A DNA stretch of 64,000 bases, from NCBI RefSeq assembly GCF_000732725.1, contig NZ_JPNB01000003.1:62001-126000 (forward strand), given 5' to 3'. Numbering within the stretch: position 1 is the first letter of the stretch; the number at the start of each line of letters is the position of its first letter. The notes under the pieces were generated by a model that did not search any database, was not told the DNA's origin, and saw only the letters and a program-made list of their open reading frames with translations. The stretch is from Kineothrix alysoides. GTDB lineage: Bacteria > Bacillota > Clostridia > Lachnospirales > Lachnospiraceae. The translations under genes and the position numbers were made by a program. Of the stretch, positions 28,833 through 49,300 are shown piece by piece.

Positions 28833-28969
28833 ACGCCTTTCTTCTTCCCTGCATATGATAGCTTTTTACTTATCCACACTTTGTTCACTATGTTCATCAT
28901 ATCACAGCTTTCCGGCATTTTTTATTCCTTGCGCAAAATGCGTCATCTGTTTCACAAAATGTATTTTAT

Positions 28970-30715
28970 TTACTCTACTTTCTTGAATTTATTCACTTCA
29001 CCGCTTAACGTATTTACTGTTTCCAGATTGCGGGCAGCCTCGTCGCTTATTGTGGTAATTGAACTAAATAAAATATTAGTATCCTCGTTCGACTGTACCA
29101 CCGCCTTCACACTTTCCTCTACGGCAATAGTAATTCCGCTTAAGCCTTCTGCCATATGAGATGCTGTTTCCCGCAGTTCCTGCGACTTATCCTCAAATCC
29201 TGAAAGCATTTCATTTATCGCTCTTGTATCCTCCTTATAGCCCCCTGTAATGGCTGCAAACTCAGCATAATCTTCTAAGATTATCTCCGTAATATAGGAC
29301 ATAATCTCATCAGAGTTATAAGCAAGCTCCTTTACGGAATCTACTACAATCGTATTCGTTGTTTGGATGTCACCGGCAATGTTCCTGGTATTCTCTGCCA
29401 GCTTTCTTATTTCCTCCGCTACAATAGCAAAGCCTTTTCCCGCATTGCCTGCTCTGGCCGCTTCTATGGAGGCATTTAAAGCAAGAAGATTGGTCTGGGA
29501 AGAAATTCCCAGAATCGCCTCCGTAAGCTCATTTATTTTCTCTACGGAGCGGCTTTTTTCAATAGAGGCTTCCATCCTTCCGCCTATTTGTTTCAATATA
29601 TCTTTCGTCCTCTCCTTGCTTTCTTCCGCCTGCGCACTGACCGCTTGTGCCCGGGTTACAATGTTTCCAACCTGGAGAGAACCGGATCGGGCAGACTCTT
29701 CCATGGTATTAGATGCCTGCAGAACATTCTGTGCCGCGCCGTCCATGTTTTGCAGGGTTGCGCTTATTTCCTCCATGCTTGCCGACATTTCGTTCAACGC
29801 ACCCGAAATATCAGAAGCAGAATCCTTACATTCTAATATGTGGTTATTTATTATCTGAGTGGTGCCCTGAATGGTATGGGAACCGGATTTAATAGATAAC
29901 ATAGCCCGCTGCAAAGCATCCAGGAAGCTATTAATTCCCTTTACAATCTGCCCGATTTCATCCTTGCTGCTGCAGCCTATCCGTACCGTCAGGTCTCCCT
30001 CTCCGGCTTCCAGCTTCTCAATAATGCTGTTCAAATCATCCTTCGTCGTTTTCAACGGTCTGATTATAGTCTTCATACAAATAAAAAAGGCTGCTCCTGC
30101 GGATAATATGAACAAACTCGCCATAACCCATATGATTACTGTGGATCTGGTCACTCTCGAATGTATCAGTTCGGTTTCATGTTCGATACTTAAATCCAGT
30201 ACCTTCTGAAATCCCTTTTCGGCATCCGTCATATTGGCGAATAATTTTTCTAATATTTCATATTCTACTTCAACCGATGCCCTGTCCTCGTTTTCTATAT
30301 ATCCGGCAATGACAGACACTTGCTGTAAATAGGAGTCCATCGCTTTGTAATAAGGCTCATATGCCTCCATCAATGCCGTATTCATGGCTTTATCGGAAAA
30401 CTCCTCACAAATGGCGGCAATATCGCTTACAACATCTCCGCTTCGCTGCGCCGATTCCTGAATTTCCTGTGCTGCTTCCTTTCCACTGCCTTCAGCGTTA
30501 GCTAACAAATAAGATTTGATGGACAAATTGATTCCATCCATTCCCTTCACCAGATTTACCTGATTATATTCCAGACTGAGAAACGAGTCCGAAATTAAAT
30601 CTGAGGACAACCGGACTTGTGAATTGGTAACTCCGCTTAAAGCAGTATTCACCACAAACAATCCTGTGAGAAACACTAGAATAAATAAGATACGAGATAC
30701 TATGGATTTGCGCAT
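28970..30715 (-). CDS. Methyl-accepting chemotaxis protein
   Basis: 581 residues. Membrane helix 1 (about 9-29), a four-helix-bundle type extracellular sensor (30-188), helix 2 (about 190-213), HAMP (about 214-268) and a long signalling hairpin. The conserved tip reads [20 protein letters not shown] with [18 protein letters not shown] after it. It senses a ligand outside the cell or through a binding protein and signals to CheA. It lies inside the GH3 cluster, and its promoter carries two LytTR-type boxes at 21-bp spacing. That suggests chemotaxis toward the locus's sugar is induced together with the enzymes. Confidence 0.92.
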
Positions 30716-30795: not shown

Positions 30796-30826
30796 CATAA
30801 ACTGTTGGTTTTAAAGCATAAACTGT
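30796..30826 (-). promoter_or_regulatory. Paired LytTR-type boxes upstream of the chemoreceptor
   Basis: Two identical boxes, ACAGTTTATG on the minus strand, at 30826-30817 and 30805-30796, with starts exactly 21 bp apart. Each fits the LytTR consensus [TA][AC][CA]GTTN[AG][TG]. A -10-like TATGAT lies about 26 bases downstream of the second box. Confidence 0.75.
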
Positions 30827-31018
30827 ACTTTAAACATTTACTCCCGTTATGAAATGTGAGTGTATTCTAAACAGTCTGCTTTCCTGGCTTTCTTATGTAT
30901 TCCGCGATGCCCGCATGCCAGAATAATAGATGCTATCCGCAATCAATACCCATCGTATTCTAAAATCCGTTTCCAGACATCAATAGCTTTTTTCTTCTAA
31001 TTCTATCCCATATATTAA

Positions 31019-31048
31019 TTTCGGCAAGTCTATACAGACCTGCCGAAA
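31019..31048 (-). terminator. Stem-loop after the second cytosolic GH3 gene
   Basis: TTTCGGCA / TGCCGAAA with an inner GTCT/AGAC pair, 18 bases past the stop at 31066. The T-run is weak. The rest of 30830-31018 shows no gene. Confidence 0.6.
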
Positions 31049-31065
31049 TTATACCAATTATTTCC

Positions 31066-33513
31066 TTACTTCATTCTATTCGCTTTTTTCACAACTTTTC
31101 TTTGTTTGAAAAATCCGGAAATCACCTGTCTGAGTCCTCCAAAAAAATGCCCGTTGATAATCCTCATGATTCCGTCTACCATATAACTGCTGACCATTCC
31201 GCCTGTCATCTTTCCGATTCCTCTGAAGGTCATGTTATAAATAAACAAGATATTCAAATCCGGTTTTCCTTTTTCCAAGCTCTTATCCAGCATCCTTGTC
31301 AATATCTTATAGACCAGCCTTGCCGGCGCGCTTTTCGCATAGTATAACTGACAGATTGCGTCATTTGCTTCCAGCGTCCTACTCCAGCTTCCGTCCGGAA
31401 TTTCATGCCCCAACAGCTCTTTCCACTCCTTGTCCGTTACAGATAAAATATCTCCATTCGCATAACTTGGCAGTTTTGCCATATCGTACGGAGACGGCGC
31501 ATTTGTACCTTCTATGACCACACTTCCCGCTAAACGAATATCCGCTACGGAGGCGCCTACCATAATCTCATACTCGCCGCCTTCAACCTCAAAACGGTTT
31601 GTTTTTACATTAAAATATCGGAATGCCTTATCATCCAAGGGAATCGTGACCTTTTTGCTCTCGCCGGCCTTCAAAAATATTTTTTTAAAGCCCTTTAATT
31701 CTTTTGCAGAGCGGTACACAGCAGGCGCCTTGGCGCTTACATATATTTGTGCTATCTCTGCACCATCCATTTTTCCTGCATTAGTGATTGTGAATGTCAC
31801 CGTCGCCGGATTTTCCATATCTTTTTTATGGTTCTCAATTTGCAGATTGGAATAGGTAAAGGTGGTATAACTAATTCCGTATCCGAATGGGAATAACACC
31901 TCATTACCCACCGTTTCAAAATACCGGTAGCCCACAAATAAGCCTTCTCTGTATTCCGCATTCCTCTGCCTTGATGGGAAATAGGGAGCAGACGGCGTAT
32001 CCTCATATGTAAGCGGATAAGTCTCTGAAAGCTTCCCTGACGGATTCACTTCCCCCATAATTGCTTTCAGCATAGCTGACGCTCCTGCCTGACCACACAG
32101 ATATCCATGGATTAACGCCTTGCACTTTGAAAGCCAGGGCATCTCCACTGAAGAACCGGCAGACATAACCACCACTATATTTTTGTTTACTTTTTCAATT
32201 GCATCTAATAGAGAAATCTGATTCTCCGGCATCTTCATATGGGGGCGTTCAAGCCCCTCTGCTTCTGAAATCTCATTCAGTCCCAGATACAAAAGAACAA
32301 CATCCGCCTTCTTTGCAAGCTCCACTGCCTTATTTTGCAGCTCAGCATTTTCCGGTCCGACCCTGGTGTATCCCTGCTCAAACCCAACTACTTTTAACTC
32401 GAAGCACGTGGTCATTTCCTTTGCGGAATCCAACTTTGTGGGATTCACCACAGATGAACCTGCTCCCTGATACCGTGGTGTCCTTGCAAAATCCCCGATA
32501 AGGGCCACGGCAGTCCCCTTCTTAAGCGGCAGAATAGTATCTTCATTTTTCAACAGAACAATGCTTTCTTCACTGGCTTTTTCTGCCATCTGATGATGTG
32601 CTTCCACATCAAAGGCTTTTCCTGAAGCCTTCTCTACCGCCGCTCCTGCGGAAAAAATAACATCTAAAAGCTCATCTAATCGCTTATCGATTAGTCTCTC
32701 ACCGATTTTTCCATCCTTTACCGCCTGAATCAGCTCTTCATCACTGTCACCGCCTGTGGTAGGCATCTCCAGATGGGCGCCGGCCCTTACACCCTCCACA
32801 TGGTCATTGCTTCCCCCCCAGTCCGAAACCACAAATCCGTCAAAGCCCCATTCATCCCGCAGAATGTCCTGCAGCAGATGCTTATTCTCATTGGCATAGA
32901 CTCCGTTTATACGGTTATATGACGACATGATACTCTTTGGCTTTGATTCCTTGACCGCGATTTCAAAAGCGGTTAAATAAATCTCCCGCAAAGTCCTCTC
33001 GTCCATGACTGAATCACTTGCCATGCGCCTCATCTCCTGCGAATTTGCCGCAAAGTGCTTCGGACAGGCAGACACACCGTTTTCCTGAATTCCCCTGATA
33101 TAACCGGCCGCCATCTTTCCTGCAAGATACGGATCCTCAGAAAAATACTCAAAATTGCGGCCGCACAGCGGGTTTCTTTTAATATTCAGGCCAGGTCCCA
33201 AAATAACGCCTACACCCTGACTGGCTGCTTCCTCGCCCAGGCAGTGCCCGATTTCTTCACCAAGGGACGGATTCCAGCTATTTGCAATCGCCGCTGCCGT
33301 CGGAAAACAAGTAGCGGGAACGGAACCATGTATACCCAATTGATCCCCCCTGCCTTCTTGTTTTCTGACTCCATGCGGTCCGTCCGCCAACATGATGCTC
33401 TTTATTCCAACACGCTCTACGCTTCTGGTCAGCCAAAAATCCTTGCCGGAGAACATATAGCATTTTTCTTCCAGAGACATCTGTGAAATAATCTCATTAT
33501 ATTTCAATTCCAT
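31066..33513 (-). CDS. GH3 beta-glucosidase-type enzyme, cytosolic, paralogue
   Basis: 815 residues from ATG 33513 (AAGGG about 9 bases upstream; GTG 33531 is an alternative). It is a close paralogue of the 26406 enzyme along its whole length. The nucleophile Asp lies in GFVVSDWGGSNDH, with CPKHFAANSQE and an Fn3-like FPFGYGISYTTFTYSNL. The same unassigned 110-residue C-terminal extension is present, ending with a hydrophobic-basic tail (GFFKQRKVVKKANRMK). It lacks a signal peptide. It lies after a terminator-like hairpin at the end of the membrane GH3 gene, so it may be expressed partly by read-through of the upstream operon. Confidence 0.9.
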   Translation of the reverse strand: MELKYNEIISQMSLEEKCYMFSGKDFWLTRSVERVGIKSIMLADGPHGVRKQEGRGDQLGIHGSVPATCFPTAAAIANSWNPSLGEEIGHCLGEEAASQGVGVILGPGLNIKRNPLCGRNFEYFSEDPYLAGKMAAGYIRGIQENGVSACPKHFAANSQEMRRMASDSVMDERTLREIYLTAFEIAVKESKPKSIMSSYNRINGVYANENKHLLQDILRDEWGFDGFVVSDWGGSNDHVEGVRAGAHLEMPTTGGDSDEELIQAVKDGKIGERLIDKRLDELLDVIFSAGAAVEKASGKAFDVEAHHQMAEKASEESIVLLKNEDTILPLKKGTAVALIGDFARTPRYQGAGSSVVNPTKLDSAKEMTTCFELKVVGFEQGYTRVGPENAELQNKAVELAKKADVVLLYLGLNEISEAEGLERPHMKMPENQISLLDAIEKVNKNIVVVMSAGSSVEMPWLSKCKALIHGYLCGQAGASAMLKAIMGEVNPSGKLSETYPLTYEDTPSAPYFPSRQRNAEYREGLFVGYRYFETVGNEVLFPFGYGISYTTFTYSNLQIENHKKDMENPATVTFTITNAGKMDGAEIAQIYVSAKAPAVYRSAKELKGFKKIFLKAGESKKVTIPLDDKAFRYFNVKTNRFEVEGGEYEIMVGASVADIRLAGSVVIEGTNAPSPYDMAKLPSYANGDILSVTDKEWKELLGHEIPDGSWSRTLEANDAICQLYYAKSAPARLVYKILTRMLDKSLEKGKPDLNILFIYNMTFRGIGKMTGGMVSSYMVDGIMRIINGHFFGGLRQVISGFFKQRKVVKKANRMK

Positions 33514-33537
33514 TGTTTTTTTCCCTTCCACAGCGAA

Positions 33538-33569
33538 AAAGAGCCGCCACCTTTTGGCGGCAGCTCTTT
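33538..33569 (-). terminator. Terminator between membrane GH3 and cytosolic GH3 genes
   Basis: On the minus strand AAAGAGC and CCGCC arms pair with GGCGG and GCTCTTT, then TTTTC follows. It begins 7 bases after the stop at 33576. Confidence 0.8.
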
Positions 33570-33575
33570 AATCTT

Positions 33576-36500
33576 TTATAACACTTTGTTTATAACATTA
33601 CGTTTTTTCGTGCTTCTCCCACTTTTTACGGAACGGATTGCAAACACGCCCCAAAGGATTAAAGCTGCAATAATGGCAATGTCCGCGAATATCATCACCA
33701 GCATCCATATTGGCAACAGATAGCCATCTGATTGAATACTCATGGCATTGCTGTTGACGACCGAATACAAAATATTCTTTGTCGCTTGCCGAAGAAGCGT
33801 AATCTGTGTTGCATCATCAGTCATAGCAAATGTCTTGGCATCCTGTGTTAAGAACAGGTCGCCGCCGGCACGAATCATCTCGTCCACGTGTGTATAGGTA
33901 TTTAAGCTATAGTCCGTAATGACCGAGCCATGGAAGCCCCATTCATCACGAAGCACCTGCGTAAGCAGTGCATAGCTGCCGCCAGCCCATTTCATCCCCA
34001 CACGGTTGAAGGAAGTCATCATGCCTGTTGCCCCGCCTTCTTTCACTGCAATCTCAAAAGGCTGCAGATAAATCTCCCTCATTGCCTGTTCATTCGCCCA
34101 TACGAGAATACCGTTATATTCACGATCCGTCTCCTGGTCATTGATTGCAAAATGCTTCACGTAACAGTAGACGCCCTTTTTCTCTGCTCCCCGAACCACA
34201 CCTGCGGCGAATTTGCCGGACAGCAGGCCGTCCTCACTGTAGTATTCCCAGTTTCTTCCTGCAAAAGGAGAACGGTGGATATTCACGGCCGGTGCATACC
34301 AACCGGAATAAGGCAATCCATCACCTTTTTCATTGCCTGCAAGACCTTCTTCACCTACCAGCTCACCCATTCTCTCTGCCAGCGCAGCATTCCAGGTGGA
34401 ACCCATTACACATTCTGCCTGATAAGCACAAGTCCCGTATACGACTGATTCTGATAAAAAGCTCGTAAACCCGCTGGGACCATCTGCGTCTATCGTGAGC
34501 GGTTTGTCGACCACCCCGTCAATGCCATTTACTTCATTGGTGCGGAAAGCGCCGAAACCGACCAGATTCTTCATCTCCTCAATGGATATTTCATTCAGCA
34601 GCGTTTCCCAGCGCGGGTCATCGAAGGACACCTCTCCTACATAATTTCCGTCCTCGGCATAAAGCATATCCCTCAGAGACAGCCCGTTATTTACCGGTGT
34701 GGCAGAGGGCGCATCGCCCATTACTTCCCATGGCTTTCCTTCATCAGGTTCTGTGTATTTACGCTTGATGGATTCATCCAGCGCTTCCTTTAAGTCATCC
34801 GTCAGGGTTCTCTCACTGTCATCCAGATAAGCTGTGGGAACCGTACCTGCAAAATCTTTACGGGATACATAGGATGCATAGGTGTTTGTACCGAAAATAC
34901 CGGCGCTCACGTCATCAAATGCATTTACAACTTCTGCTTCCTCACCGTCCGCATCCATATCAGTGGGCATCTGCACACTGTCATTCAGGGTATATACTGC
35001 ATTTGCCTTCGCCGTATGTGAATCGCTTCCTACGATGATATTATAATCCCCTGCTTCCAGTTCATAGCCGCTGAAACCATTTTCATTGGTGTCTGCATAG
35101 TCATATGACTTCATATTCTTCACATCAAGAGTAAGCGTAAGCGTCTCTTCTTCTCCCGGAGCAAGAAGTCCTGTTTTGGCAAAATCACCTAAAACAGCAT
35201 GTGCCTTTTCGATTGCAGGCCCTTCATAATCATAAGGTGCGCTGTAATACAACTCTACAACATCTTTTCCGGCATAATTCCCGGTATTTTTAACCGTCAC
35301 GGATACCTCCAGCGTATCCTCTTCCGTAATAGCGCTTCCATCCGCTTCCGCAAAGGAAACATTCCAATCAAACGTAGTATAGGAAAGACCATATCCGAAC
35401 GGATAGACTACGCTGTCTTCATACCATGTGGACTGCGGGTTCGCTTTCGTCTCCTCATATCCGCGGGTCTCATAATAACGATATCCTACATAAATACCTT
35501 CTTCATAGTTTACAAAAGCATAATCCGTTTTGTCGCCGTCATAAAGATAACGGTTGCCGAATTCACTTCCATAAACGCCGGTATTATACCAGGTCGGGTC
35601 CATTGTAAAATCTGCAGCCCAGGTATCTACCGTATGGCCGGAGGGACTGATCTGGTTCCCTTCCGTATCTATTCCCGTCAAAATCTGTCCCAAAGCCATA
35701 ACGCCCGTTGCCCCCGGAAAGCCCATCCAGAGAATGGAATCGATTCCTTCATCAGCCTTCAATTCCGGTATTTCCATAGTGGTGCCCACGTTCAAAACAA
35801 CGATAACATTAGAAAAATTTTCCTTTACATGTTCCAAAAGAGCTTTTTCATTTGCGTCCAATTCCAGATAATGGCTGTCTGCAGAAGAAGCCCCCGAAAC
35901 GGCACCGCCGCCAAAGCTGTCTGCCATTGTTCTGGGAAGGTCAAAGCCTTCTCCGCCAATTCTGGAAAAAACAACGATTGCCGCATCCTGATAATCTGCA
36001 TAGCTGCCCGTCACATCAGAGGTATAGGAATCAATCGGCGTTTCCCCGGTTCCGAAACCGGGCAACCGCTGTCCTGATGTCATGGCAGGATTTCCCGGTC
36101 TTCCGCTGCCGGATTTGCCGGAATCCTCATAAAAACCCTTAAGCGTTTCATTATAGGAGATTCCCGCTGCATCCAGGCTTTCATATAACGTCTTCTGCAC
36201 TGCTGAACTACTGTTGCTGGCTGAACCGGAACCGGAATAAACAATATTCACTGAGTTCTTGCCAAATACACTGACACGTGCGCCATCGACGGACAAGGGA
36301 AGCACATCATTTTCATTTTTGAGAAGAACGATTCCCTCTTTTTCCACCTCGACCACAAAATCATTGGCTGCATTTAATACTTCTTCCTTACTGGAATACT
36401 GTCTGTCATACCACTCAGCTCTGTTATCCTCTACCACATTGGCGCGTTCTCCGCCAAAAACAAGGCTTAATGAATTTGTAACAATGGGCACGCTTAATAA

Positions 36501-36590
36501 AACAGCCGTTACCGTAATTTCCAGAACAAGTACGATAGCTGTCACAATAAACCAGATTTTTGTTTTTTTATGAGTCCAAATAAAACCCAT
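33576..36590 (-). CDS. Membrane-anchored GH3 enzyme with reversed domain order
   Basis: 1004 residues. A membrane helix lies at about 12-37 and a second near 955-980. The usual C-terminal GH3 sandwich comes first (GIVLLKNENDVLPL near 85), then Fn3 (YPFGYGLSYTTFDW near 395), then the catalytic barrel (IDADGPSGF, YVKHFAINDQE, nucleophile Asp in SVITDYSLNTYTH near 892). Such swapped GH3s are known from Butyrivibrio fibrisolvens and Ruminococcus albus beta-glucosidases. The catalytic parts should face outside. It is cotranscribed with the CBM-like lipoprotein and the second swapped GH3 upstream. Confidence 0.9.
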   Translation of the reverse strand: MGFIWTHKKTKIWFIVTAIVLVLEITVTAVLLSVPIVTNSLSLVFGGERANVVEDNRAEWYDRQYSSKEEVLNAANDFVVEVEKEGIVLLKNENDVLPLSVDGARVSVFGKNSVNIVYSGSGSASNSSSAVQKTLYESLDAAGISYNETLKGFYEDSGKSGSGRPGNPAMTSGQRLPGFGTGETPIDSYTSDVTGSYADYQDAAIVVFSRIGGEGFDLPRTMADSFGGGAVSGASSADSHYLELDANEKALLEHVKENFSNVIVVLNVGTTMEIPELKADEGIDSILWMGFPGATGVMALGQILTGIDTEGNQISPSGHTVDTWAADFTMDPTWYNTGVYGSEFGNRYLYDGDKTDYAFVNYEEGIYVGYRYYETRGYEETKANPQSTWYEDSVVYPFGYGLSYTTFDWNVSFAEADGSAITEEDTLEVSVTVKNTGNYAGKDVVELYYSAPYDYEGPAIEKAHAVLGDFAKTGLLAPGEEETLTLTLDVKNMKSYDYADTNENGFSGYELEAGDYNIIVGSDSHTAKANAVYTLNDSVQMPTDMDADGEEAEVVNAFDDVSAGIFGTNTYASYVSRKDFAGTVPTAYLDDSERTLTDDLKEALDESIKRKYTEPDEGKPWEVMGDAPSATPVNNGLSLRDMLYAEDGNYVGEVSFDDPRWETLLNEISIEEMKNLVGFGAFRTNEVNGIDGVVDKPLTIDADGPSGFTSFLSESVVYGTCAYQAECVMGSTWNAALAERMGELVGEEGLAGNEKGDGLPYSGWYAPAVNIHRSPFAGRNWEYYSEDGLLSGKFAAGVVRGAEKKGVYCYVKHFAINDQETDREYNGILVWANEQAMREIYLQPFEIAVKEGGATGMMTSFNRVGMKWAGGSYALLTQVLRDEWGFHGSVITDYSLNTYTHVDEMIRAGGDLFLTQDAKTFAMTDDATQITLLRQATKNILYSVVNSNAMSIQSDGYLLPIWMLVMIFADIAIIAALILWGVFAIRSVKSGRSTKKRNVINKVL

Positions 36591-36718
36591 AATTATCTCC
36601 TTTTCTGCCGCGGCTTCTTATTTCCGGCCCGCGAACACAATTTTTATGGTATTACTCGTAACTATTCAACAGGTCTGCGCATTTACTGCGCTGACCGTAA
36701 AGATACGTAGAACAGTAA

Positions 36719-36760
36719 GTGAAAATCCCATCACCGAAGGTGACTTTAATGGATTTTCAC
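36719..36760 (-). terminator. Stem-loop after the CBM-like lipoprotein gene
   Basis: GTGAAAATCC / GGATTTTCAC arms enclose an inner CACC-GAA-GGTG hairpin. A smaller AAAGCAA-type hairpin lies between it and the stop at 36779. No T-run follows on the minus strand, so partial termination or mRNA protection is likely. Confidence 0.6.
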
Positions 36761-36778
36761 AAAGCAATCTTTGCTTTT

Positions 36779-37417
36779 TTACTCAATGTTTTCTACAACA
36801 TCTTCCATGGAAAGCTCTGAGCCTGCCGTAATCTTCAGACAGTCAATGGAAGGCGCACTTGGCATATTGCTGCGGTAGGTATTCTCACCGGCAACAAAAA
36901 CAATTTCGTTCTCGCCTGCTTTCAACTGGATCTCTCCAAGATTCTTTGTTTTGAAATTTTCTTGATCGCTTGCATCCATACCGTTATCCGTTGTAAACTC
37001 CTCATACTGAACTGCTTCACCATTTACGGTAACTACGAAGCTTGTAGGATTCCACGTACAGTTTCCTAATGTATTCGAGCCAAGTACTGCTTTCAACGTA
37101 GCTGTCGTATCCGCATCTGATGTGATCACAAAGGTAATCGGACTTTTTGTGCCAAGCTCTCCTACATAAAAGCCATTGCTTGCATTGGCATTTTCTTTTG
37201 CAAGACCGATGCCTGTCGGGGAACCGGATACTCCAAGCCCCTCCAATCCTTCCAATACAGTGTATTCTGCTTCAAAAATAAATTCTGTTCCGTCCGCTTT
37301 CTTCACTTCATCCGTAGTTTGGCTTCCGGCTTCTGTACCGCCACCGCCGCCTCCGCAGGCAGTCATCAATACCATTGCTGCCGCCATAAGCAAAGCTGTT
37401 ATTACTCTCTTTTTCAT
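36779..37417 (-). CDS. Lipoprotein with CBM6/CBM35-like carbohydrate-binding domain
   Basis: 212 residues. A signal peptide with lipobox (MTAC, Cys21) is followed by a Gly run and acidic linker. Then comes a beta-sandwich of about 140 residues with the CBM6/35 pattern: FEAEYTVLEG at its start, GFYVGELG, FVVTVNGEAV, and QLKAGENEIVFVAG with SIDCLKI at the end. It probably holds a glycan at the cell surface beside the two surface GH3 enzymes encoded on either side. It has no catalytic residues. The assignment to CBM6/35 is by pattern, not by search. Confidence 0.75.
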   Translation of the reverse strand: MKKRVITALLMAAAMVLMTACGGGGGGTEAGSQTTDEVKKADGTEFIFEAEYTVLEGLEGLGVSGSPTGIGLAKENANASNGFYVGELGTKSPITFVITSDADTTATLKAVLGSNTLGNCTWNPTSFVVTVNGEAVQYEEFTTDNGMDASDQENFKTKNLGEIQLKAGENEIVFVAGENTYRSNMPSAPSIDCLKITAGSELSMEDVVENIE

Positions 37418-37442
37418 TACATCGCTCCTTTTGATTTAGCGA

Positions 37443-37482
37443 AACAGATGCACCTGCCTACCGCGCTGCATCTGCATCTGTT
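37443..37482 (-). terminator. Stem-loop between GH3 lipoprotein and CBM lipoprotein genes
   Basis: Perfect 10-bp arms AACAGATGCA / TGCATCTGTT with a 20-base loop. No strong T-run; it probably tunes relative expression of the two genes. Confidence 0.55.
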
Positions 37483-37516
37483 CCGATTTATTTTTCTTAT
37501 TATTTATTCCATATGA

Positions 37517-40500
37517 TTATTCAGCAACTATAAGCGGAAGCTCAATAGAAGCCGGTTCATAACCCGTCGCTTCTGCCGTAATCTTAATCGTGTAGTCGCC
37601 TGCTGCAGACGGTGTTCCGCCGATAATACCGGTTGCCGCATCAAAGGTCATGCCCTCCGGCAATCCTTCTACCGCATAAGCAATATCAGAATATGCATAG
37701 TAGGTATTTAAAACAGCAGTATTCAACGCATCTGAAGTATATGCTTCACCAACCTTGGCATCTGCCAGCGTTATAGCAACATCTTCACCATCAACTTCAA
37801 CGGTATCTGTATAAATTACCTTCGTGCCCTTGGGAAGCTGTATCGCATTACTGTTTGCAACCATGTACAAAATCTGCTTGGCAGCATCCTGCATACAGTG
37901 GATTGTAATATTCTGTTCATCTTTATCCATAGCAAGGATCTCTTCTACATCCAGATATGTGCCGCCTTCAATGCCATAAACCTTGGCATCTAACATCATA
38001 TTAGCGCCTGCTTTAATCAACTGATATGCATTACAAGCATTGTATATTACGATATCCGTCACAACAGCACCATTGAATCCCCACTCGTCTCGAGTAATCT
38101 GGTTCATAACACCATAGCTTGCAGCACACCACGTCTTGCCGATTCTGGTAAAGGATCCCATTGCGAAAGTAGCTTCGCCTTCTTCTACTGCTTTTTGATA
38201 CCCTTTCAGGTAAACTTCTCTGGCTGTCTGCTCTGTCATCCATGCGGACAGACCATCCATTGCCGTACCGGTTGATATAGGTCCAAAACGATATGTCATA
38301 GCACCGCCGCCGTCATTATGGAATGCAAAATGCTTCAGAGTAATATAGCATCCCTTTGTTTTTGCACCCTGAGATACGTTAGCAGCCAGACTTCCTGTCA
38401 GGAAAGGATCTTCAGAATAATACTCTGATACTCGGCTGTCAAAAGGGGAACGATGAATGTTCATACCCGGTGCATACCACCCGGTATAGCTGTATACGAT
38501 TCCGCCCGATACCGTGCTGTTACCCCACAAGCCCTGCTCGCCGATTATTTCTCCCATCTGATAAAGAAGGTCTTCATTAAAGGTAGATGCAATCATAGGT
38601 TCCGATCCAAAGTAGTTGAACCTGTCATTTGTATCGGTGTAGTTACCTGTCCATCCCTTAGGGCCATCCGTATCACGTGAATATGGTTTACCGATATACG
38701 GTACGCCGACGGAATTGAATCCGCCTACATTGACCAAATCTGCTAATTCCTGTAACGTCAGTTGTTCAACCAATTCCTGATATCTTGCATCGTCTGCGTC
38801 TGCGCCGGTCAGATCGGACAAAACGATGGAATATTTATCTGCTGTACGGTTTGCAGCATCTGTCTCATAAACGGGTGTGCCGATTGCCGCCGCATCATAA
38901 TGAGCGTTGTATGCCGCATCATCATAGTCCCATGTAGCATATTCCTCTTCAGAGATTTCTTTTACAGCCTCAAATCCATCCGGCATTGTTCCTTTAAAAT
39001 TGCTGCGGGATAAAGCTGTATATCCTTCGCTTGCAAAACCTTCTGTTACATCGTCCAGAGCATTGGTGATTTCCGCACCTGTAACCGCTTCATTGCACAA
39101 TTCCTTCTGCGCAACAGTGTAATTAAAGCTGGCGTCATTGGCGCTCATACCATAGTGAGCATTGCCTGCAACCTTAACATTGTAAGTACCTGCATCCAAA
39201 ACGTATGTCTTATCTGTCACATCATCGTATGAAGCCATATCGGAAACATCAATAGAAACCTGTACGACCTCGCTTGCGCCCGGTTCAAGGATACCTGTCT
39301 TTGCATAATCTCCGAGAACAACATATGATTTTTCGATTACCGTATCATTACCTGTTTCCTCTGTGCCGTAAGGAGCCGTATAATATAACTGGACAACTTC
39401 CTTACCTGCGGCATCGCCGGTATTGGTTACTTTGACGTCAAATGACAGAGTATCCGCTTTGGTCACCGCAGAATCTGCTGCTGCAGAAGGAGTAACTTCC
39501 CATGTAAAGTCAGTATAGGAAAGACCATAACCGAAGGGATAGTTTACATTCGTATTCCACCATGCATCCTCCGTGCCTGCTTTGTTTTCTTCATAGCTTC
39601 TGGTTTCATAATATCTGTAACCCACATAAATGCCTTCTTCATAACCTACGGACCATGTATTTACCGGTTCGCCGTTTACACTGTACTGGGTATAACCGGT
39701 CATTGTGCCGTTGCCGTCTTCACCCTTTGCAGTTTCACTGGTTCTGGTGTTGAAAATCTTGTAAGACGGACTCTGCGTGAAATCCACCGCCCAAGTATCA
39801 ACCGTTCTGCCGGAAGGATTCACTTCACCGGCAATAACTCTCCCCAGCGCCTCAAATCCGTTGTCGCCGGGCTCGCCGATATTCAGAATCGCATCAACTG
39901 CATCATTTTTTTGAATTTGTGCGATTTCAATCGGAGTACAGCTATTTACCAGTACAATAACTTTATCAAAATTTGCAGCTGCATAATCGATCAGATCATA
40001 CTGCTCATCATCAAGCTGCAGGGAATGAATTCTACCGTCCTTTGCAATCTCACCGGTACCGCGGGAAATGACAACGATAGCCGCATCGCCGTACTCTCCC
40101 AGGGATGCTTTCCATTCATTAGTCCCGGAAGCTTTTGCAAAATCATCTGCAACCAGAATATCGGAAGTCTTCTTGGGAACATTCCCTTTGTCATCTGCCT
40201 CCGCTCCTTCTATATCCTCTGATGCCCACTGAGCATAGAGGTCAAGGACTGTTTTGTTCAGGGCAAACCCTGCATCTTCCATGCCGGAGATCACGGTAGC
40301 CTGCGCAATAGCTGCTCCGCCGGAAGCATCAACGACGTTATGGCTGGCACCTGCATTCGGATTGACTGCCGCGTAACCAAGCATCGTGACTTTTGCGCCG
40401 CTTGCAAGCGGAAGTGCATCACCTTCATTCTTGAAAAGGATCATACCCTCTTCAGAAATCTTCACATTTAAATCAAGTCCCGCCTGTAATGCTTCTGCCT

Positions 40501-40696
40501 TACTTGCATATGCAGACTCATACAGAACAGGCGTTTCCGATGACTCTGTCTGCGTTTCTTCTGAACTCGCAGATGTTTTTGGGGGTTCGGTTGCGCTTTC
40601 AGTCTGTCCCGCATTGTTTCCGCAGGCTGTAAGACCAAGTACAAGAGCTCCGGATAACATCAGAGCCATTAATTTTTTTAACTTTTTCTCAATCAT
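37517..40696 (-). CDS. GH3 lipoprotein with reversed domain order and C-terminal Ig-like domain
   Basis: 1059 residues. Lipobox LTAC (Cys25) is followed by a Thr/Ser/Glu-rich linker. Then come the GH3 sandwich (EGMILFKNEGDALPLASG), Fn3 (YPFGYGLSYTDFTWEV), and the catalytic barrel with DTDGPKGW, TLKHFAFHN and the likely nucleophile Asp in AVVTDIVIYN near 880. The usual Trp after the nucleophile is Ile here. The last 90 residues are a putative Ig (He_PIG-like) domain (LPEGMTFDAATGIIGGTPS). ATG 40696 follows AGGAGG. It heads the surface operon, with LytTR-type boxes about 90-115 bases upstream. Confidence 0.9.
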   Translation of the reverse strand: MIEKKLKKLMALMLSGALVLGLTACGNNAGQTESATEPPKTSASSEETQTESSETPVLYESAYASKAEALQAGLDLNVKISEEGMILFKNEGDALPLASGAKVTMLGYAAVNPNAGASHNVVDASGGAAIAQATVISGMEDAGFALNKTVLDLYAQWASEDIEGAEADDKGNVPKKTSDILVADDFAKASGTNEWKASLGEYGDAAIVVISRGTGEIAKDGRIHSLQLDDEQYDLIDYAAANFDKVIVLVNSCTPIEIAQIQKNDAVDAILNIGEPGDNGFEALGRVIAGEVNPSGRTVDTWAVDFTQSPSYKIFNTRTSETAKGEDGNGTMTGYTQYSVNGEPVNTWSVGYEEGIYVGYRYYETRSYEENKAGTEDAWWNTNVNYPFGYGLSYTDFTWEVTPSAAADSAVTKADTLSFDVKVTNTGDAAGKEVVQLYYTAPYGTEETGNDTVIEKSYVVLGDYAKTGILEPGASEVVQVSIDVSDMASYDDVTDKTYVLDAGTYNVKVAGNAHYGMSANDASFNYTVAQKELCNEAVTGAEITNALDDVTEGFASEGYTALSRSNFKGTMPDGFEAVKEISEEEYATWDYDDAAYNAHYDAAAIGTPVYETDAANRTADKYSIVLSDLTGADADDARYQELVEQLTLQELADLVNVGGFNSVGVPYIGKPYSRDTDGPKGWTGNYTDTNDRFNYFGSEPMIASTFNEDLLYQMGEIIGEQGLWGNSTVSGGIVYSYTGWYAPGMNIHRSPFDSRVSEYYSEDPFLTGSLAANVSQGAKTKGCYITLKHFAFHNDGGGAMTYRFGPISTGTAMDGLSAWMTEQTAREVYLKGYQKAVEEGEATFAMGSFTRIGKTWCAASYGVMNQITRDEWGFNGAVVTDIVIYNACNAYQLIKAGANMMLDAKVYGIEGGTYLDVEEILAMDKDEQNITIHCMQDAAKQILYMVANSNAIQLPKGTKVIYTDTVEVDGEDVAITLADAKVGEAYTSDALNTAVLNTYYAYSDIAYAVEGLPEGMTFDAATGIIGGTPSAAGDYTIKITAEATGYEPASIELPLIVAE

Positions 40697-40781
40697 TTTT
40701 TCCCTCCTTTTTTCTCGCCTATATTTAAATCACTTAGACAATTAAAATATATCACAATTTTTCTTTTTTTGACTTGGTTTA

Positions 40782-40812
40782 CACAAACTGTCCTCTTTTT
40801 TTCATAAACTGT
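40782..40812 (-). promoter_or_regulatory. Paired LytTR-type boxes upstream of the surface GH3 operon
   Basis: ACAGTTTATG (40812-40803) and ACAGTTTGTG (40791-40782) on the minus strand, 21 bp apart. Both match the LytTR consensus without mismatch in the core nine bases. A -10-like TATATT lies about 30 bases downstream. Confidence 0.78.
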
Positions 40813-40913
40813 TTTTAGATATGTATATTTAACAAATTTGAAGATGCATTTTTGTACAGATTCATCAATCTTATTCTTCTTTTGTTAAAAGGTATCAATA
40901 TTGTTAATTTAAA

Positions 40914-41146
40914 TCATTTATCCTCTATATTGATACGTACCGCACCGCCATATTTCTTTTTCTCAAACCGCACAATCAGAAAGTCCTTTTGGGAGAAAAC
41001 AGCCATGTGAATCAGCCTTTTTTCCTTATCGGGAACCTTTTTTTACACTCGATGGCGTTGTCCAAAGTATTTCCAAAAATTGTACAGATATCCCTGATAT
41101 TTGCGGCTTTCGCACTGATTATCAGTCCATCACTAAAAGTCAAATG
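40914..41146 (-). pseudogene. Remnant of a GHKL sensor kinase C-terminus
   Basis: Minus-strand translation gives IRDICTIFGNTLDNAIEC, then after a frameshift EKRLIHMAVFSQKDFLIVRF and KKYGGAVRIN before a stop at 40914. These segments match the neighbouring kinase (ICTLFGNSLDNAIEC, KRLIHVEVVSKKDFIVLRF, KKYGGWVTIN). About 35 residues between the RFE and KKYGG segments are missing. It is therefore a decayed partial copy of the kinase gene beside it. Confidence 0.8.
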
Positions 41147-41206
41147 AAAACCATTCAGAAAAAAATAAGGGCAAGCGATAAATTACCATACTCCATGAAA
41201 CAGTTT

Positions 41207-41250
41207 AGAACCGCTGCAAGCCAAATATTTCAAGGCTTTACAACGGTTCT
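41207..41250 (-). terminator. Long hairpin after the sensor kinase gene
   Basis: AGAACCG / CGGTTCT arms extend through CTGCAAGCC / GGCTTTACAA with G-U pairs, 30 bases past the kinase stop. No T-run, so it may be a processed 3' end or a dispersed repeat. Confidence 0.5.
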
Positions 41251-41279
41251 GAACTTTCTCAACTGTCAAAGATGGGATT

Positions 41280-42593
41280 TTATTCTTTTGGCGATGGGAT
41301 CACAACATTAAGCTCGAACCAGTTTCCTTTTTTGTTTATCGTTACCCATCCGCCATATTTTTTTGCTGTATATTTGATACTCTTTATTCCATATCCGTGA
41401 AAATCCTTGTTCAACTTCGTAGTGGCCGGAAGATTGTCCTCGATTTCAAGGTCTCCTTCAAAATAGTTTTCAAAACGGAGCACGATAAAATCCTTTTTCG
41501 AAACCACCTCCACATGAATGAGCCGTTTCTCTTGTTCCTCAATCTGAATCTCGCATTCAATAGCGTTGTCCAACGAATTACCAAATAACGTACAAATATC
41601 CATCACATGCATGAAGTTCAAGAGCTTACCATCTACCACGCAGGTCAATTCAATATTATGTTTCTGGCAGGTAATGCTTTTTCCCGTAAGAATCGTATCC
41701 ACTACAGAGTTTCCTGTTTTATTCTGTGCCTCATACATCTTGATTTCGCTTTCCATTTCATCCAGGAAAGCCAACCGCTTTGCCGAATCCTCTTCTGCCC
41801 GCAGAACCGCTATCTGATGCTTTAAATCGTGATATTTACGATTGACAATATCAATACTCTCTCCCGATTTACGATACAAAGTGTATTGACTCTGCAAAAT
41901 ATTACGCATAGCATCCAAGTCGTATTTTGCCTGCATCTCTCTTCTCAAAATGTGATATGCGTATAAAATAGTGAGACCGCTTAAATCAACCAAGGTACGA
42001 ATATTAAAAATCTCCCTCGTAATCTGGCTGCTGAAAGGTGTATTAGCATAAACAAAGCTCAAATTGCTCACGAAAAAAACTGTTGCGCCAATCGCAATGA
42101 CGAAGATCAATTCCTTTACAGTTGTTTTTTCCTGAGAAAGATACATGTGCTTTCTTTCCAAAAAGAAAATCCCTGCATATACCATTGTATAAGTTGCTGC
42201 CAAAACGGCCACGCCTAACCATAAACTTAAGTTTTCCGTGCTTTCCACTGCATAATAATACAACTGCCATTCCAAGGAAGCCGCAAACTCCGCCAAAATA
42301 AAAGCTCTTATACAATAGTATCCTGCGTTAATCCAGGTTATCTCACAAGAAAAATAAAAGTAAAGAAGCATCAGACCAATCGCAAGAAACATGCCCAAAA
42401 GCCAAAAATTTTCAGAAAAATGACCTGCCAGCTCCTGAACTAAACATTGTACAATCAGCGTTGCGCCCATAAGAATTCCCATAAAAATGCCGCTATATCT
42501 CTTCTTCAGCATGAGAATATATATGCTGCACGCCGCCCACTCTGCTATTCCAGTGTACAATCTCGGAATCTCCGTAAGGGTTACATGATCCAT
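41280..42593 (-). CDS. GHKL-type sensor histidine kinase (AgrC-like)
   Basis: 437 residues. Six to seven hydrophobic segments fill residues 10-215. A coiled linker follows, then the phosphoacceptor region YHDLKHQIAVLR (His in HDLKHQ). The GHKL ATPase has the N-box FGNSLDNAIE, a short G1-like region, and HGYGIKSIKYTAKKYGG. This is the AgrC/ComD/CitA-like class that pairs with LytTR regulators, normally sensing a peptide or small molecule. Its ATG overlaps the regulator stop (TAATG). No peptide-maturation gene (AgrB-like) is nearby. A broken partial copy lies downstream. Confidence 0.9.
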   Translation of the reverse strand: MDHVTLTEIPRLYTGIAEWAACSIYILMLKKRYSGIFMGILMGATLIVQCLVQELAGHFSENFWLLGMFLAIGLMLLYFYFSCEITWINAGYYCIRAFILAEFAASLEWQLYYYAVESTENLSLWLGVAVLAATYTMVYAGIFFLERKHMYLSQEKTTVKELIFVIAIGATVFFVSNLSFVYANTPFSSQITREIFNIRTLVDLSGLTILYAYHILRREMQAKYDLDAMRNILQSQYTLYRKSGESIDIVNRKYHDLKHQIAVLRAEEDSAKRLAFLDEMESEIKMYEAQNKTGNSVVDTILTGKSITCQKHNIELTCVVDGKLLNFMHVMDICTLFGNSLDNAIECEIQIEEQEKRLIHVEVVSKKDFIVLRFENYFEGDLEIEDNLPATTKLNKDFHGYGIKSIKYTAKKYGGWVTINKKGNWFELNVVIPSPKE

Positions 42594-43300
42594 TACATCG
42601 CTCCTCCCAAATAATTCGTCAATTCCTCCATAAATTCTTTTTTCCTTCCCCTGCTGATAGCTATGCTTTCACCGTTAATAATTACACAATCATTCTGTAC
42701 GCTGTCAACATAAGCCAAGTTCAAGAGACAGCCCTTATTACAACGAAAGAAATCCGAGTCCTTTAATCGCTCTTCCGCCTCTTTCATTGTGGCAAAGGTA
42801 ACATATTCCTCCGAGCGGGTATGGAAAATTAACCGGTGTCCCTGACTTTCAATGTAACATATATCAGAAACATAAAGTTTAACTGTCCCCCCCTTTACTC
42901 CTACCGCAATAAAATTCTTTACCTTTTTGTTAATACGCCCGATAGCCTTATCCAGACTTTGAGAAAATGAAAAATAAGACACCGGTTTTAAAACATAATC
43001 CGTAGCATTTACCGTATATCCGTTAATGGCATATTGAGCCATATTTGTTATAAAAATAATAATTACCTCAGGATCACTTTTACGGATAACGGAGGCTGCC
43101 GTCATCCCGTCCATGAATCTCATTTCTATATCAAGAAGAATGATATCGTATTCCGCCTTGTAATTCTCAACAATCTCATCCCCATCCGAAAAGGTTACGA
43201 CACACAACTCCTGACTTCGCTCTCTCTGATACTGCATTAAATATTCTTTTAACTGTTCAATACTTATTGAATCATCATCTACAACAGCAATACGAATCAT
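42593..43300 (-). CDS. LytTR-family response regulator
   Basis: 235 residues from ATG 43300 (AAGGAG, 7-base gap). The receiver domain has Asp8-Asp10 (VVDDDS), phosphoacceptor Asp57 in ILLDIEM, and Lys in YVLKPVSYFS. The LytTR DNA-binding domain occupies about 125-235 (YIESQGHRLIFHT, FFRCNKGCLLNLAYVDSV). Family members bind pairs of 9-bp direct repeats about two helical turns apart. Exactly such pairs occur upstream of this gene, of the surface GH3 operon and of the chemoreceptor. It is translationally coupled to the kinase gene. Confidence 0.92.
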   Translation of the reverse strand: MIRIAVVDDDSISIEQLKEYLMQYQRERSQELCVVTFSDGDEIVENYKAEYDIILLDIEMRFMDGMTAASVIRKSDPEVIIIFITNMAQYAINGYTVNATDYVLKPVSYFSFSQSLDKAIGRINKKVKNFIAVGVKGGTVKLYVSDICYIESQGHRLIFHTRSEEYVTFATMKEAEERLKDSDFFRCNKGCLLNLAYVDSVQNDCVIINGESIAISRGRKKEFMEELTNYLGGAM

Positions 43301-43368
43301 AGGATTTCTCCTTCCTTTATTTATCAATATTATACAATAAGCTTATAATTTTTCCTATAATAAAAAAT

Positions 43369-43404
43369 ATAGGCATTGCCGGTCAATTTCCCCGCAACAC
43401 CTAT
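43369..43404 (-). terminator. Attenuator-like hairpin in the regulator leader
   Basis: ATAGGCATTGCCGG pairs imperfectly with CCCCGCAACACCTAT. On the minus strand the stem is followed by TATTTTTTATT. It lies between the LytTR boxes and the regulator start, so a short leader transcript of about 100-150 bases would end here. Confidence 0.55.
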
Positions 43405-43535
43405 TCTCCATATACTTTTTAATTATTAAAACAATGCCATTACTTGCCTGACACATTACAACAACCAATGCTGTATAACATCTTTTGTACTGTAAACAAA
43501 CTACCATATAATCCTAACCTATACACTAAGCATTT

Positions 43536-43566
43536 CACAAACTGCATCTTTTATTACACAAACGGG
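43536..43566 (-). promoter_or_regulatory. Paired LytTR-type boxes upstream of the two-component operon
   Basis: CCCGTTTGTG (43566-43557) and GCAGTTTGTG (43545-43536) on the minus strand, again 21 bp apart. Each has one mismatch to the LytTR consensus at the first base. A -10-like TATATG lies about 25 bases downstream. This indicates autoregulation. Confidence 0.65.
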
Positions 43567-46370: not shown

Positions 46371-46390
46371 AGCCTCTTCCTCCTTAACGC

Positions 46391-49300
46391 CTAATATTCT
46401 TCGAGCAACTCATACAGATTCTCTTTACCATTGGTAAAATAAATCCCGGTTCTCTCCGGAAATACAACCTGTGCTACCGTATACAGCAAGTCGATTTCCG
46501 CCGGTTTCATCTCATACGTATGCAGGGTGAAAAAGCTTGGCTTCTCGCTTCCCGAATCATAAATTCGAAGAGAGCTGGTCATATCGTTTATTAATTCATC
46601 CACTTCCTGAAGATAACCATGCTTGGAATCAATCAGGATAACCAGGTCTACCATAACGTGGTTGGTTCTAAGATATTCGTAAGCCTTTAATACATCCTTC
46701 ACAATCCTTTCCGCTTCCATAGACCGGACCATTAGAAGCAGAATAGGATTATCGCCGGATATGCCGAATTTCCATAAGGAACTCTGATTCAAAAAGTTTC
46801 GTCTTATATTTTCATTCGGCCCTCTGTAAATACTTGCGGGATAGAAAATCGGACTGATCAGATCCTGAAAAGCATTCAGCTGGTTTCTGGTAATCTCCAG
46901 ATACTTTAACTCCAGATTCTTTTGAAGCCTAAATTTTTCCAAAATATCATCGATCCTATAACTTACATTCAATTCCCCTGCTATTTTTATTGCTTCCTCC
47001 TTACTGCCGCATACTCCGGTAATGAAAGAAATACAGACAGATTCCCCTGCTCCTATGCTAAGCTGCGCCCGCAGGCTCATAATCGGATCATTACAAAAAC
47101 CTGAATTATTGAAAAAAGCGACGCTGTTCACCACGCAGTCAGGATTCTCCAGCGTATTGTTTCTTCCAATAAATCGTTTTCTGTCATTTTCATATTCTAT
47201 TTTCTTACACAGTGCCGTTCCCGTTCTTATCATATGCATCACGTAAGAACTATCATTTTTCTTCTTCCTCCGCCTTTTGGCAAGAAATATCTCCTGCTCT
47301 TCCAGATATTCACTTTCCAGAAAGAGCTTGTTAAATGCGGGATGGCTTAATTCCGCCAAATGAGTATCATCCACCACTTCCAAATAGCTGGTCACTTCCA
47401 GTTGTTTTTCTTCATTCCCGTGATTGGTAAATGTAATCTTACGTATCTCAAGATTACGATCCGCATCCAGACTGACGATCATGTCTGATGAAATATCTCC
47501 GTCCTTGCGCTTAAATTCCACCTGATGAGGACAAAAAACTACCTGATAGCTCTCCGGTTCCGTTCTTGTAGGGTGATAGGCAGCGCTCCAAAGCTTCCCC
47601 TGCTTCATGTCCTTAATATAAATATAATTACCTGTATTCTCATAAATATCCGGTCGAAAACGGTAAAGCATCCGGTCCTCATATTTACTGAAGCCGTCTC
47701 CATCCGATGTTATCATCAGTGAATACTTACCGTTTGACAAATAATTTACAACCGGTGCATTCACGCCTGCACTTCCTATCGTTCTGCTGCTGTATATACT
47801 TTCTTTAAAAAGAGACTTCCCGATTTTTATTGTATATCCCTGTCTGGCAATGGAAATCAAATAGGACTGACGCTTCTCTTCCAGTAATACTTCCGAGGCC
47901 TTTATTATCATCTCCGCATGGAACCGCTCTCTAAGGATACCCTCATTCAGATAATTATTGATTGCAGCCAGATTCATCCCTTGATGATGTGCCATATAGG
48001 ATTTTACAATACAGTAAGGCGTCATCTCCATGGAATTCGGCACATCGAAATCAACGGACTCATAGAAACCGTAAACGCCGAAGGCACCTAATTCTTTCAG
48101 CCTCCTTAAATTACTCATGCATTCCTCTTGTGCAATATCCAGAGCCAGCATTGTCGCATATGGGGTGGCCACCATGGAATTCTTACGGACCGGCTGAAGC
48201 CTTATCTTTGGAACACCAAAGGCTTTGTACTGATAGTTAGAGTTTAGGTCAAAACGATAATACTGGGATTCCGATATCCCCCATGGTATCCGGGCCTCCT
48301 TCGCATACTTCATCTGCTGGAGTACCGCTGCCCTGGAAGTTTGCGCGTAGACAGAGCCTTCATATTCTTTGAATACGAGATTAGGCATCAGATATTCGAA
48401 CATCGTGCCGCTCCAGGATACGAAGCATGGAATACCTCCTACGATAGTCAGAGGCCTTCCCAATTTATACCAATGCTTTAACGGCACTTTTCCCAGGGAT
48501 ATTGCAAGAAGGCTTGTGAGTGCCGATTCCGATGCCATCAGATCATAGCATCCATCATCCAGCATGTTCGAGGATACATGATATCCGATATGGAATAACA
48601 TTCTCTTTTCATTAAATAAGAAGTGGAAATCTGCCTCTTCCAAAAAGCCGTCTATTTTATCGCATATCACTTTGATACGCCTGATCATGCCGTTTGCGAA
48701 TTCATTGCCCTCCGCTGCGATAAGACGAAGCGTAGGATAAGAAGAAAAGTTCTCTTCCTTCAGTCCTAAATCAGACGCTTCATTAATAATGCTGTCAATG
48801 AGATTCATCAATTGCCTGGTCTGGCGATAGTGCGCAGATGGCCTAAGCTCTCTGATACTTAAGTTTTCGCGAATCTCCGCAATATCTTCTATTAACTCAC
48901 CTATTTTTGTATACTCAGGCTTAAGCCCGTTTCCGGCAGGATTGCCTGTCCTCATCTGCATTTCTTCGTTGCTGTTCTTAAGCAGGGACCTGAGTTCATA
49001 TATAAAATTATCCGGAAATACAGGCTTGTCAATCTGCTCCAAAAGTCCATTTTTCAGAGCGACCAGATGCCCTAGAAAGTTACCGCTGTCTACGGTCGAT
49101 ATATAGGCAGGAGCCAGCACCTCTAATGTCTTGATATGATACCAGTTGTAGAGATGTCCCTTATATTTCAACATTTTCTGAACCGTTTCCATTAGCTTTT
49201 CCACGGCTTCAACCGTAGCGCTAAAAGTTTCAAACCCGAAATCTCTGGCGGACAGAATTGCCAGAAACTGAAGTCCGATATTAGTCGGGGATGTTTTATC

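Follow-up and report, generated by a model that had tools for sequence, protein, structure and literature searches.

A candidate LytTR/GHKL regulon of GH3 enzymes and a chemoreceptor in Kineothrix alysoides, with a probably acquired GH3 operon

Introduction

In the agr system of Staphylococcus aureus, AgrC is a GHKL kinase, and in the HdrRM and BrsRM systems of Streptococcus mutans a membrane inhibitor acts as the partner of a LytTR protein. Here we analyze a LytTR response regulator and a GHKL-type membrane histidine kinase encoded in a 64,000-nucleotide stretch of the Kineothrix alysoides genome (contig NZ_JPNB01000003.1, positions 62,001 to 126,000; hereafter the window), next to genes for GH3 enzymes and a methyl-accepting chemotaxis protein (MCP), together with the paired LytTR boxes that accompany these genes. 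The window system resembles agr in its regulator with receiver and LytTR domains, its GHKL kinase, and its direct-repeat operator, but its candidate targets, unlike those of agr, are GH3 enzymes and a chemoreceptor. In the available passages of PMC4227749, the direct repeats of AgrA lie immediately upstream of promoters with a non-optimal spacing between the −35 and −10 elements. HdrRM and BrsRM, as far as the available part of PMC6193735 describes them, share with the window direct repeats about two turns apart beside the promoter as well as autoregulation, and the autoregulated hdrRM promoter carries an extended −10 element; the window differs from them in having a kinase, a receiver-domain regulator, and GH3 and MCP targets.

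Two published gene arrangements resemble that of the window. According to passages of a 2010 report (PMC2914790), Butyrivibrio proteoclasticus B316 has three LytTR response regulators, each near a secreted GH3 enzyme with a C-terminal transmembrane helix, and these regulators probably belong to the same family as that of the window; the same passages do not mention binding sites or promoter architecture, nor a link to a chemoreceptor or the evolution of an operator. In Roseburia, the polysaccharide utilization locus (PUL) Ros-7, as given in the relevant part of PMC5320581, brings together a LytTR response regulator, a histidine kinase, a chemotaxis transducer (MCST) and AraC, which matches the combination of LytTR regulator, kinase and transducer in the window, but its enzymes are GH25, GH43 and GH51 rather than GH3. 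A search of the open-access literature returned no description of a GH3-LytTR/GHKL regulon.

We put the probability at roughly 0.78 that one LytTR/GHKL pair drives its own genes, a GH3 operon and the chemoreceptor through paired boxes, and that the GH3 operon was captured later and re-spaced. Such a regulon appears well supported and of a known kind, and the trace of operon capture looks unusually clear. For a two-component family that adjoins GH3 genes in many Bacillota, it would define an operator, the layout of the promoters and a set of targets. Of the 46 MCP matches in the genome, it would tie one chemoreceptor to the hydrolysis of glycans, which makes the ligand question testable. An acquired operon with a displaced-kinase fossil and a re-spaced operator would also be a natural experiment that shows how a resident circuit takes in operons received by transfer.

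Paired LytTR boxes in the window

The gene calls of an earlier note on this DNA (the original prediction) stood when examined with Pfam: a receiver and LytTR regulator, a GHKL kinase, a GH3 operon and an MCP. The regulator gene (42593-43327, minus strand, as are all features of the system) encodes 244 residues from a TTG start or 235 from the ATG at 43300. Its receiver domain (Response_reg, PF00072; 1.7e-17) scores 64 bits against a Pfam cut-off of 30.2, and its C-terminal LytTR domain (PF04397; 1.4e-18) scores 67.3 bits against 22.6. With the NCBIfam model for AgrA (NF046049) it reaches 44.7 bits, below the equivalog cut-off of 400, so the protein may work like AgrA but is not AgrA. The presumed partner kinase (41280-42593) carries an HATPase_c_5 domain (PF14501; 3.4e-27, 94.8 bits against a cut-off of 22). 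The MCP (28970-30715) has MCPsignal (1.3e-28, 100.4 bits; cut-off 34.6) and HAMP (1.6e-7, 31.9 bits; cut-off 25) domains.

Three direct-repeat pairs with a 21-bp period were found on the minus strand where the original prediction had placed them, each oriented toward its downstream gene: at 30796-30826 in the chemoreceptor promoter, at 40782-40812 in the promoter of an operon of GH3a, a small lipoprotein-like protein (LP), GH3b and GH3c, and at 43536-43566 upstream of the regulator gene, as a predicted autoregulation site. The proposed paired ACAGTTTRTG motif is exact for the first two, which match ACAGTTTRTG-N11-ACAGTTTRTG with 0 mismatches, and holds only loosely for the third, which reads CCCGTTTGTG / GCAGTTTGTG and has 3 mismatches. 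Of the three named pairs, the autoregulatory one is weakest. A −10-like box downstream of each pair had likewise been recognized correctly, but in place of the suggested distance of 25-30 bases we found by manual count, at all four sites considered here, an extended −10 (TGnTAnnnT) with a distance of 30-32 nt from the second box to the start of its TA.

The fourth site, absent from the original prediction, is a weak 21-bp pair upstream of another GH3 gene, GH3d (28932-28962, 4 mismatches). It ranks fourth in the own genome with R1, a profile that includes the window sites, at 23.0 bits, and is followed by partial matches of 14.5 bits or less. An equally weak pair (4 mismatches) occupies the matching place in the sister genome, G001, and the pair is recovered at E≤0.1 in neither genome by R2, a profile of 25 sites from other genomes built without the window and without G001. 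For these reasons GH3d is counted only as a possible target, and its promoter may belong to the regulon.

The pairs are far from what chance would produce. Over 100 dinucleotide shuffles of the window the mean was 0.01 pairs, and no shuffle had three or more. Across the whole genome (4,676,087 bp), four matches were found at ≤3 mismatches, three of them the window pairs, against one for the reversed pattern; the exact core CAGTTT-N15-CAGTTT occurs twice, both times in the window, and its reversed form once. The remaining match (C2:354956) was judged to be chance because its second half, ACAAGTCATG, lacks the core and because it appears in neither the R1 nor the R2 list. Since the search pattern itself came from the window sites, we used R2 as the test profile, and at E≤0.1 it returned the three named pairs only, at 32.5, 29.3 and 23.4 bits; R2 is not fully independent, because the Konateibacter copy of the MCP promoter site is among its sites. 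The 43536-43566 pair scores 30.7 bits with R1 and 23.4 bits with R2. Pattern counts, R1 and R2 thus all disagree with a similar density of pairs elsewhere in the genome, the outcome that the original prediction had named as speaking against it.

The counterpart of the autoregulatory pair in G001 lies upstream of a GH3 gene (GH3x) that is followed by the regulator and kinase genes. This extra permuted GH3 gene of G001 (1029 aa; in the region L047:16061-19690) separates the regulator from the box pair. It is missing from the window, where the pair is retained 209 bp upstream of the regulator (43327-43566).

Box pairs in related loci

We then consider the boxes in related genomes, with G000 denoting the genome of the window and a family set of 397 genomes, 46 of which contain a relative of the regulator at E≤1e-55. 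A set of 127 loci was assembled from 40 of 74 listed regulator matches, a further group of loci and 80 named loci. Dropping G006, which gave no regulator hit, and the duplicates L128, L129, L150 and L204 left 122 loci (2.13 Mb), and since L095 is without the kinase end, counts around the kinase refer to 121. By a distance rule that ignores strand, 102 of the 121 loci have a GH3 gene next to the regulator/kinase pair, and 108 of the 122 have one somewhere on the stretch. In the window, GH3a follows the kinase gene.

Within 700 bp after the kinase gene, on the coding strand and at ≤3 mismatches, 10 pairs have a spacing of 20 bp and 32 a spacing of 21 bp. Spacings of 19, 22 and 23 bp are absent, the opposite strand has no pair, and the reversed pattern gives none at 20 and 21 bp. 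The remainder of the loci holds 3 pairs at 20 bp and 17 at 21 bp, compared with 0-3 at other spacings. Altogether, a 20- or 21-bp pair follows the kinase gene in 41 of the 121 loci, and none appeared in 20 shuffles of 120 regions. Pairs at 27 bp (two) and 30 bp (six) were rejected as a separate class, as seven of these eight combine a single half-site with a TTTGTG-like stretch where the extended −10 lies; the exception is a pair in L124.

A scan of the family set with R2 gave mostly noise at E≤0.01 (69 genomes, 18 with the regulator), and at E≤5e-4 the regulator was present in 9 of 15 genomes (p about 5e-6). In a recount omitting G000 and the R2-training genomes G159 and G185, where other training genomes may remain, regulator-bearing genomes made up 15 of 66 at 0.01 (p 0.0017), 6 of 17 at 1e-3 (p 0.006), 6 of 12 at 5e-4 (p 7e-4), 4 of 9 at 1e-4 (p 0.01) and 1 of 4 at 1e-5 (p 0.37); the outcome depends on the threshold. 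Of the six genomes without the regulator at 5e-4, five were inspected (G338, G355, G344, G032 and G299, not G379). G338 has a 20-bp pair with the kinase and a GH3 gene at a contig end; in G032 the regulator is matched only weakly, some 7 kb from the R2 site; none was found near the R2 site in G299.

The promoters that follow the boxes share one layout. Among 62 sites, 53 are linked to a target gene; the other nine were omitted, eight having no target gene in reach and one lying before the kinase gene. An extended −10 with its TA 30-32 nt after the second box is present at 47 of the 53 sites, and 42 sites have it within 27-31 nt, where shuffles gave 0.45 on average and never more than 2. When TTGACA was sought upstream of these 42 with a spacer of 16-18, the closest match differed at 2 to 5 positions in 41 cases and at 1 position in the remaining one, so no clear conserved −35 is present. 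This layout is as expected of an activator-dependent promoter, which would make the regulator an activator.

The chemoreceptor as a probable target

All six MCPs that were compared at 48-100% full-length identity, from the window, G001, Konateibacter, two Paenibacillus and Fontibacillus, are preceded by a 21-bp pair, and a −10 lies 30 or 31 nt after it by manual count, that of Fontibacillus without the TG. The six span Lachnospiraceae and Paenibacillaceae, and the MCP gene of Paenibacillus and Fontibacillus precedes the regulator gene and has a pair of its own. Together with the pairs after 41 of 121 kinase genes versus none in shuffles, this result supports the proposal that the regulator/kinase pair controls itself, the GH3 operon and the chemoreceptor, and it suggests that the regulon is older and wider than the genome of the window.

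A related MCP sensor region was found in 6 of the 397 family genomes (E≤1e-15). An AlphaFold model of MCP residues 1-230, made from five sequences, is all helical with four long helices (mean pLDDT 82.4), and the sensor region, membrane helices included, is thus predicted to resemble a four-helix bundle. Counting the window MCP itself, the own genome contains 46 matches to it at E≤1e-10. The CheW domain was hit five times, twice on frames of CheA size; chemotaxis is therefore plausible.

Probable acquisition of the GH3abc operon

A block of about 10 kb (31051-41100), which contains a kinase remnant, the operator and GH3a-LP-GH3b-GH3c (GH3abc), was probably acquired horizontally. Read as 41100-31051, it aligns with genome G011 in three pieces at about 94% nucleotide identity, compared with 83.2% for the rpoB region; the rpoB regions of the window genome and G001 are 92.8% identical. 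GH3a is 95.8% identical to G011 and 94.2% to G001 at the nucleotide level. By contrast, the regulator and kinase proteins are only 53% and 48% identical to those of G011, but 91% identical to those of G001.

The block begins with a degenerate 3' tail of a displaced G011-type kinase gene (40890-41100, the lower end near 40890 being approximate). Identity to G011 is 94.4% for positions 41100-40960 and 89.7% for positions 40958-40700, the latter extending across the GH3a promoter; about 105 nt have been lost between the two parts. We considered the tail as a duplicate of the resident kinase type and rejected this origin, as the identity is 70% to the kinases of G001 and G006 and 74% to that of Konateibacter, versus 94% to G011.

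In Konateibacter the order is regulator, kinase, box, MCP and GH3d, without GH3abc in between, and the G001 stretch that was examined has no counterpart of GH3c or of the kinase tail. G005 combines a G011-type regulator with a GH3abc operon of ordinary divergence, which is evidence that the operon was arranged in this way earlier. The foreign block and the kinase tail, like the sites, their geometry and their conservation, are read from the sequence itself. They are most simply explained by transfer of the GH3abc operon, along with the end of the donor's kinase gene, from a G011-like donor into the site between the chemoreceptor promoter and the kinase gene already present. GH3abc thus looks like a later arrival in the regulon.

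Operator spacing of 20 or 21 bp

When aligned, the GH3a promoters of the window, G001 and G011 are near-identical, and the operator spacing in G011 and G005 is one base shorter, 20 bp, with a first box that ends in ACG, not ATG. On a tree of 122 regulators the 20/21 label requires 5 changes, against a shuffled mean of 9.8 and with 0 of 500 shuffles as low; the label is available for 42 of the 122 rows only, and near-copies inflate the clustering. The one-base spacer change was probably adaptive, and selection is what we infer from these comparisons. More broadly, and at somewhat less than even odds, spacing could act as a lock between paralogous LytTR regulators, with operators of 20 and of 21 bp each tied to a separate regulator lineage, such that the acquired GH3 operon was recruited by a one-base change and left a kinase-tail fossil, in a regulon coupling glycan cutting and taxis across Lachnospiraceae and Paenibacillaceae.

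A reading to which we give a little short of an even chance is that 20 and 21 bp differ by neutral drift only: either spacing would suit the regulator, and the one-base change in the operator of GH3a would be without regulatory meaning. The Roseburia inulinivorans locus L157 has both a 20- and a 21-bp pair, the 5 changes that the tree needs indicate that spacing is not fixed for ever, and in the available part of PMC6193735 the published LytTR direct repeats mostly have gaps of 12 bp, with a minority of 11 or 13. Drift sits less easily with the absence of pairs at 19, 22 or 23 bp downstream of the kinase, with a clustering on the regulator tree beyond all 500 shuffles, even if near-copies inflate it, and with the fact that G000/G001 and G011/G005, which differ in the spacer, differ in their regulators as well.

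Evidence against the regulon and other readings of the boxes

Several observations weigh against a single regulon of this kind, among them the coexistence of both spacings in L157. In 80 of the 121 loci there is no pair at ≤3 mismatches after the kinase gene; some of these have 4-mismatch pairs, and in others, e.g. Lacrimispora, the sites appear to have drifted or to differ. The loci are phylogenetically non-independent, with several near-copies among them. Where a related MCP sensor region was found, in six genomes, a clear pair precedes the MCP in no more than two, G000 and G185; G049 has a weak 20-bp pair with 5 mismatches, and G214, G251 and G377 have no pair at ≤5 mismatches. The GH3d site above all, and also the autoregulatory site, is weak. 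The own genome contains 22 LytTR matches, so another LytTR protein could bind the boxes. In addition, strong sites exist beside other LytTR/GHKL pairs in G355 and G344, and the box type is therefore not private to this subfamily.

The last two points lead to the reading that the boxes are LytTR operators read mainly by another LytTR protein, or by several in overlap, with the adjacent pair a mere neighbor; weak partial R1 matches at C2:1438544 (12.9 bits) and C2:1431836 (9.3 bits), within about 5 kb of the LytTR match C2:1433249, also fit it. We regard it as improbable, as the loci were picked solely by similarity to the window regulator and carry boxes directly after its kinase gene, box spacing clusters on the tree of the window-type regulator, and R1 finds no further own-genome site above 14.5 bits. 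Similarly unlikely is that the GH3 operons are the sole true targets and the chemoreceptor and GH3d boxes are linkage relics without any coupling of sensing, hydrolysis and taxis, a reading favored by the weak GH3d site and by the three family genomes with no pair before the related MCP, but opposed by the exact MCP pair of the window, by the pair and −10 kept in its five close relatives down to 48% protein identity, by the separate MCP pairs of Paenibacillus and Fontibacillus, and by G185, where the pair-bearing MCP and the regulators are on different contigs of an assembly of about 450, although they may still be linked in the genome.

As for the sites beside other LytTR/GHKL pairs, those of G355 and G344 (L292:7818, L292:9265 and L294:3463) are strong ACCGTTTATG pairs with an extended −10 near a different LytTR/GHKL pair, and these stretches gave no GH3 hit. 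In G355, two near-identical promoters precede consecutive genes of 398 and 393 aa.

Proposed mechanism

For the regulon driven by the LytTR/GHKL pair, we propose the following mechanism, in which regulator binding, activation, the signal and the chemotactic role are what we infer from sequence. The GHKL kinase would respond to a cue outside the cell, which may be formed in the breakdown of a glycan or be a precursor of it, and phosphorylate the LytTR regulator, which would then bind two ACAGTTTRTG half-sites arranged as a direct repeat of 21 bp, or two helical turns. The boxes immediately precede promoters that have an extended −10 and lack a clear conserved −35, and the bound regulator would activate these promoters. 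The targets would be its own operon, GH3a-LP-GH3b-GH3c, one of many chemoreceptors, and possibly GH3d-GtrA, so that glycan-cutting enzymes and a receptor that may report glycan would be made together. The old core would consist of the regulator and kinase genes, the box-bearing MCP and GH3d. GH3abc would have been inserted between the kinase and MCP genes from a relative with a related regulator and 20-bp spacing, and a one-base spacer change would have put it under the resident regulator.

GH3 enzymes and neighboring genes

GH3a (37517-40696) is a circularly permuted GH3 with a lipoprotein-like signal and the Pfam order GH3_C, Fn3-like, GH3_N, He_PIG. GH3b (33576-36590) is also circularly permuted by Pfam and has hydrophobic stretches at its N- and C-terminus. 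GH3c (31066-33531) has the plain domain order and an N-terminus without a visible signal; the same plain order is found in GH3d (26406-28832), which shows no signal on manual reading of the N-terminus and has solved β-glucosidases as relatives. The best PDB relatives of both GH3d and GH3b are β-glucosidases, and GH3a and GH3d missed the NCBIfam equivalog cut-offs. LP, between GH3a and GH3b (36779-37417, 212 aa), was recognized as lipoprotein-like by reading its N-terminus by eye, and it gave no Pfam hit, no NCBIfam hit and no convincing PDB match; it is 88-90% conserved in G001, G005 (a partial alignment) and G011. Downstream of GH3d lies a GtrA-like membrane protein (25791-26396), which is below the Pfam cut-off and recurrent in the GH3 loci of relatives, and an IS110-type transposase (22957-24177) is found a few kilobases downstream of the GH3d-GtrA end.

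Variants of the regulator and kinase genes were observed in relatives. Konateibacter has two adjacent regulator copies (L127:7389-8114 and 10001-10720), 78% and 82% identical to that of the window, with the kinase gene after the second. In G006 (L057:4599-8850), GH3x is truncated and the regulator is reduced to its C-terminal third, followed by an intact kinase; the sole 21-bp pair, at 4507 just before GH3x, has 5 mismatches. G006 is an apparent natural loss of the regulator. The window itself encodes a second LytTR response regulator (61153-61878), about 29% identical to the first, which adjoins a TetR-type regulator (62089-62808) and is near a phage tail collar-domain protein (59985-60515).

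Elsewhere in the window (43938-52687), a GH94-family protein of 810 aa adjoins a protein of 2098 aa with GH94 supersandwich and glucoamylase-like domains. The two look like a β-glucan synthase/phosphorylase pair, which we presume may be of the β-1,2-glucan type. They are followed at 53070-59933 by a surface protein of 2287 aa with S-layer homology and a chitobiase C-terminal-type/Fn3-associated domain.

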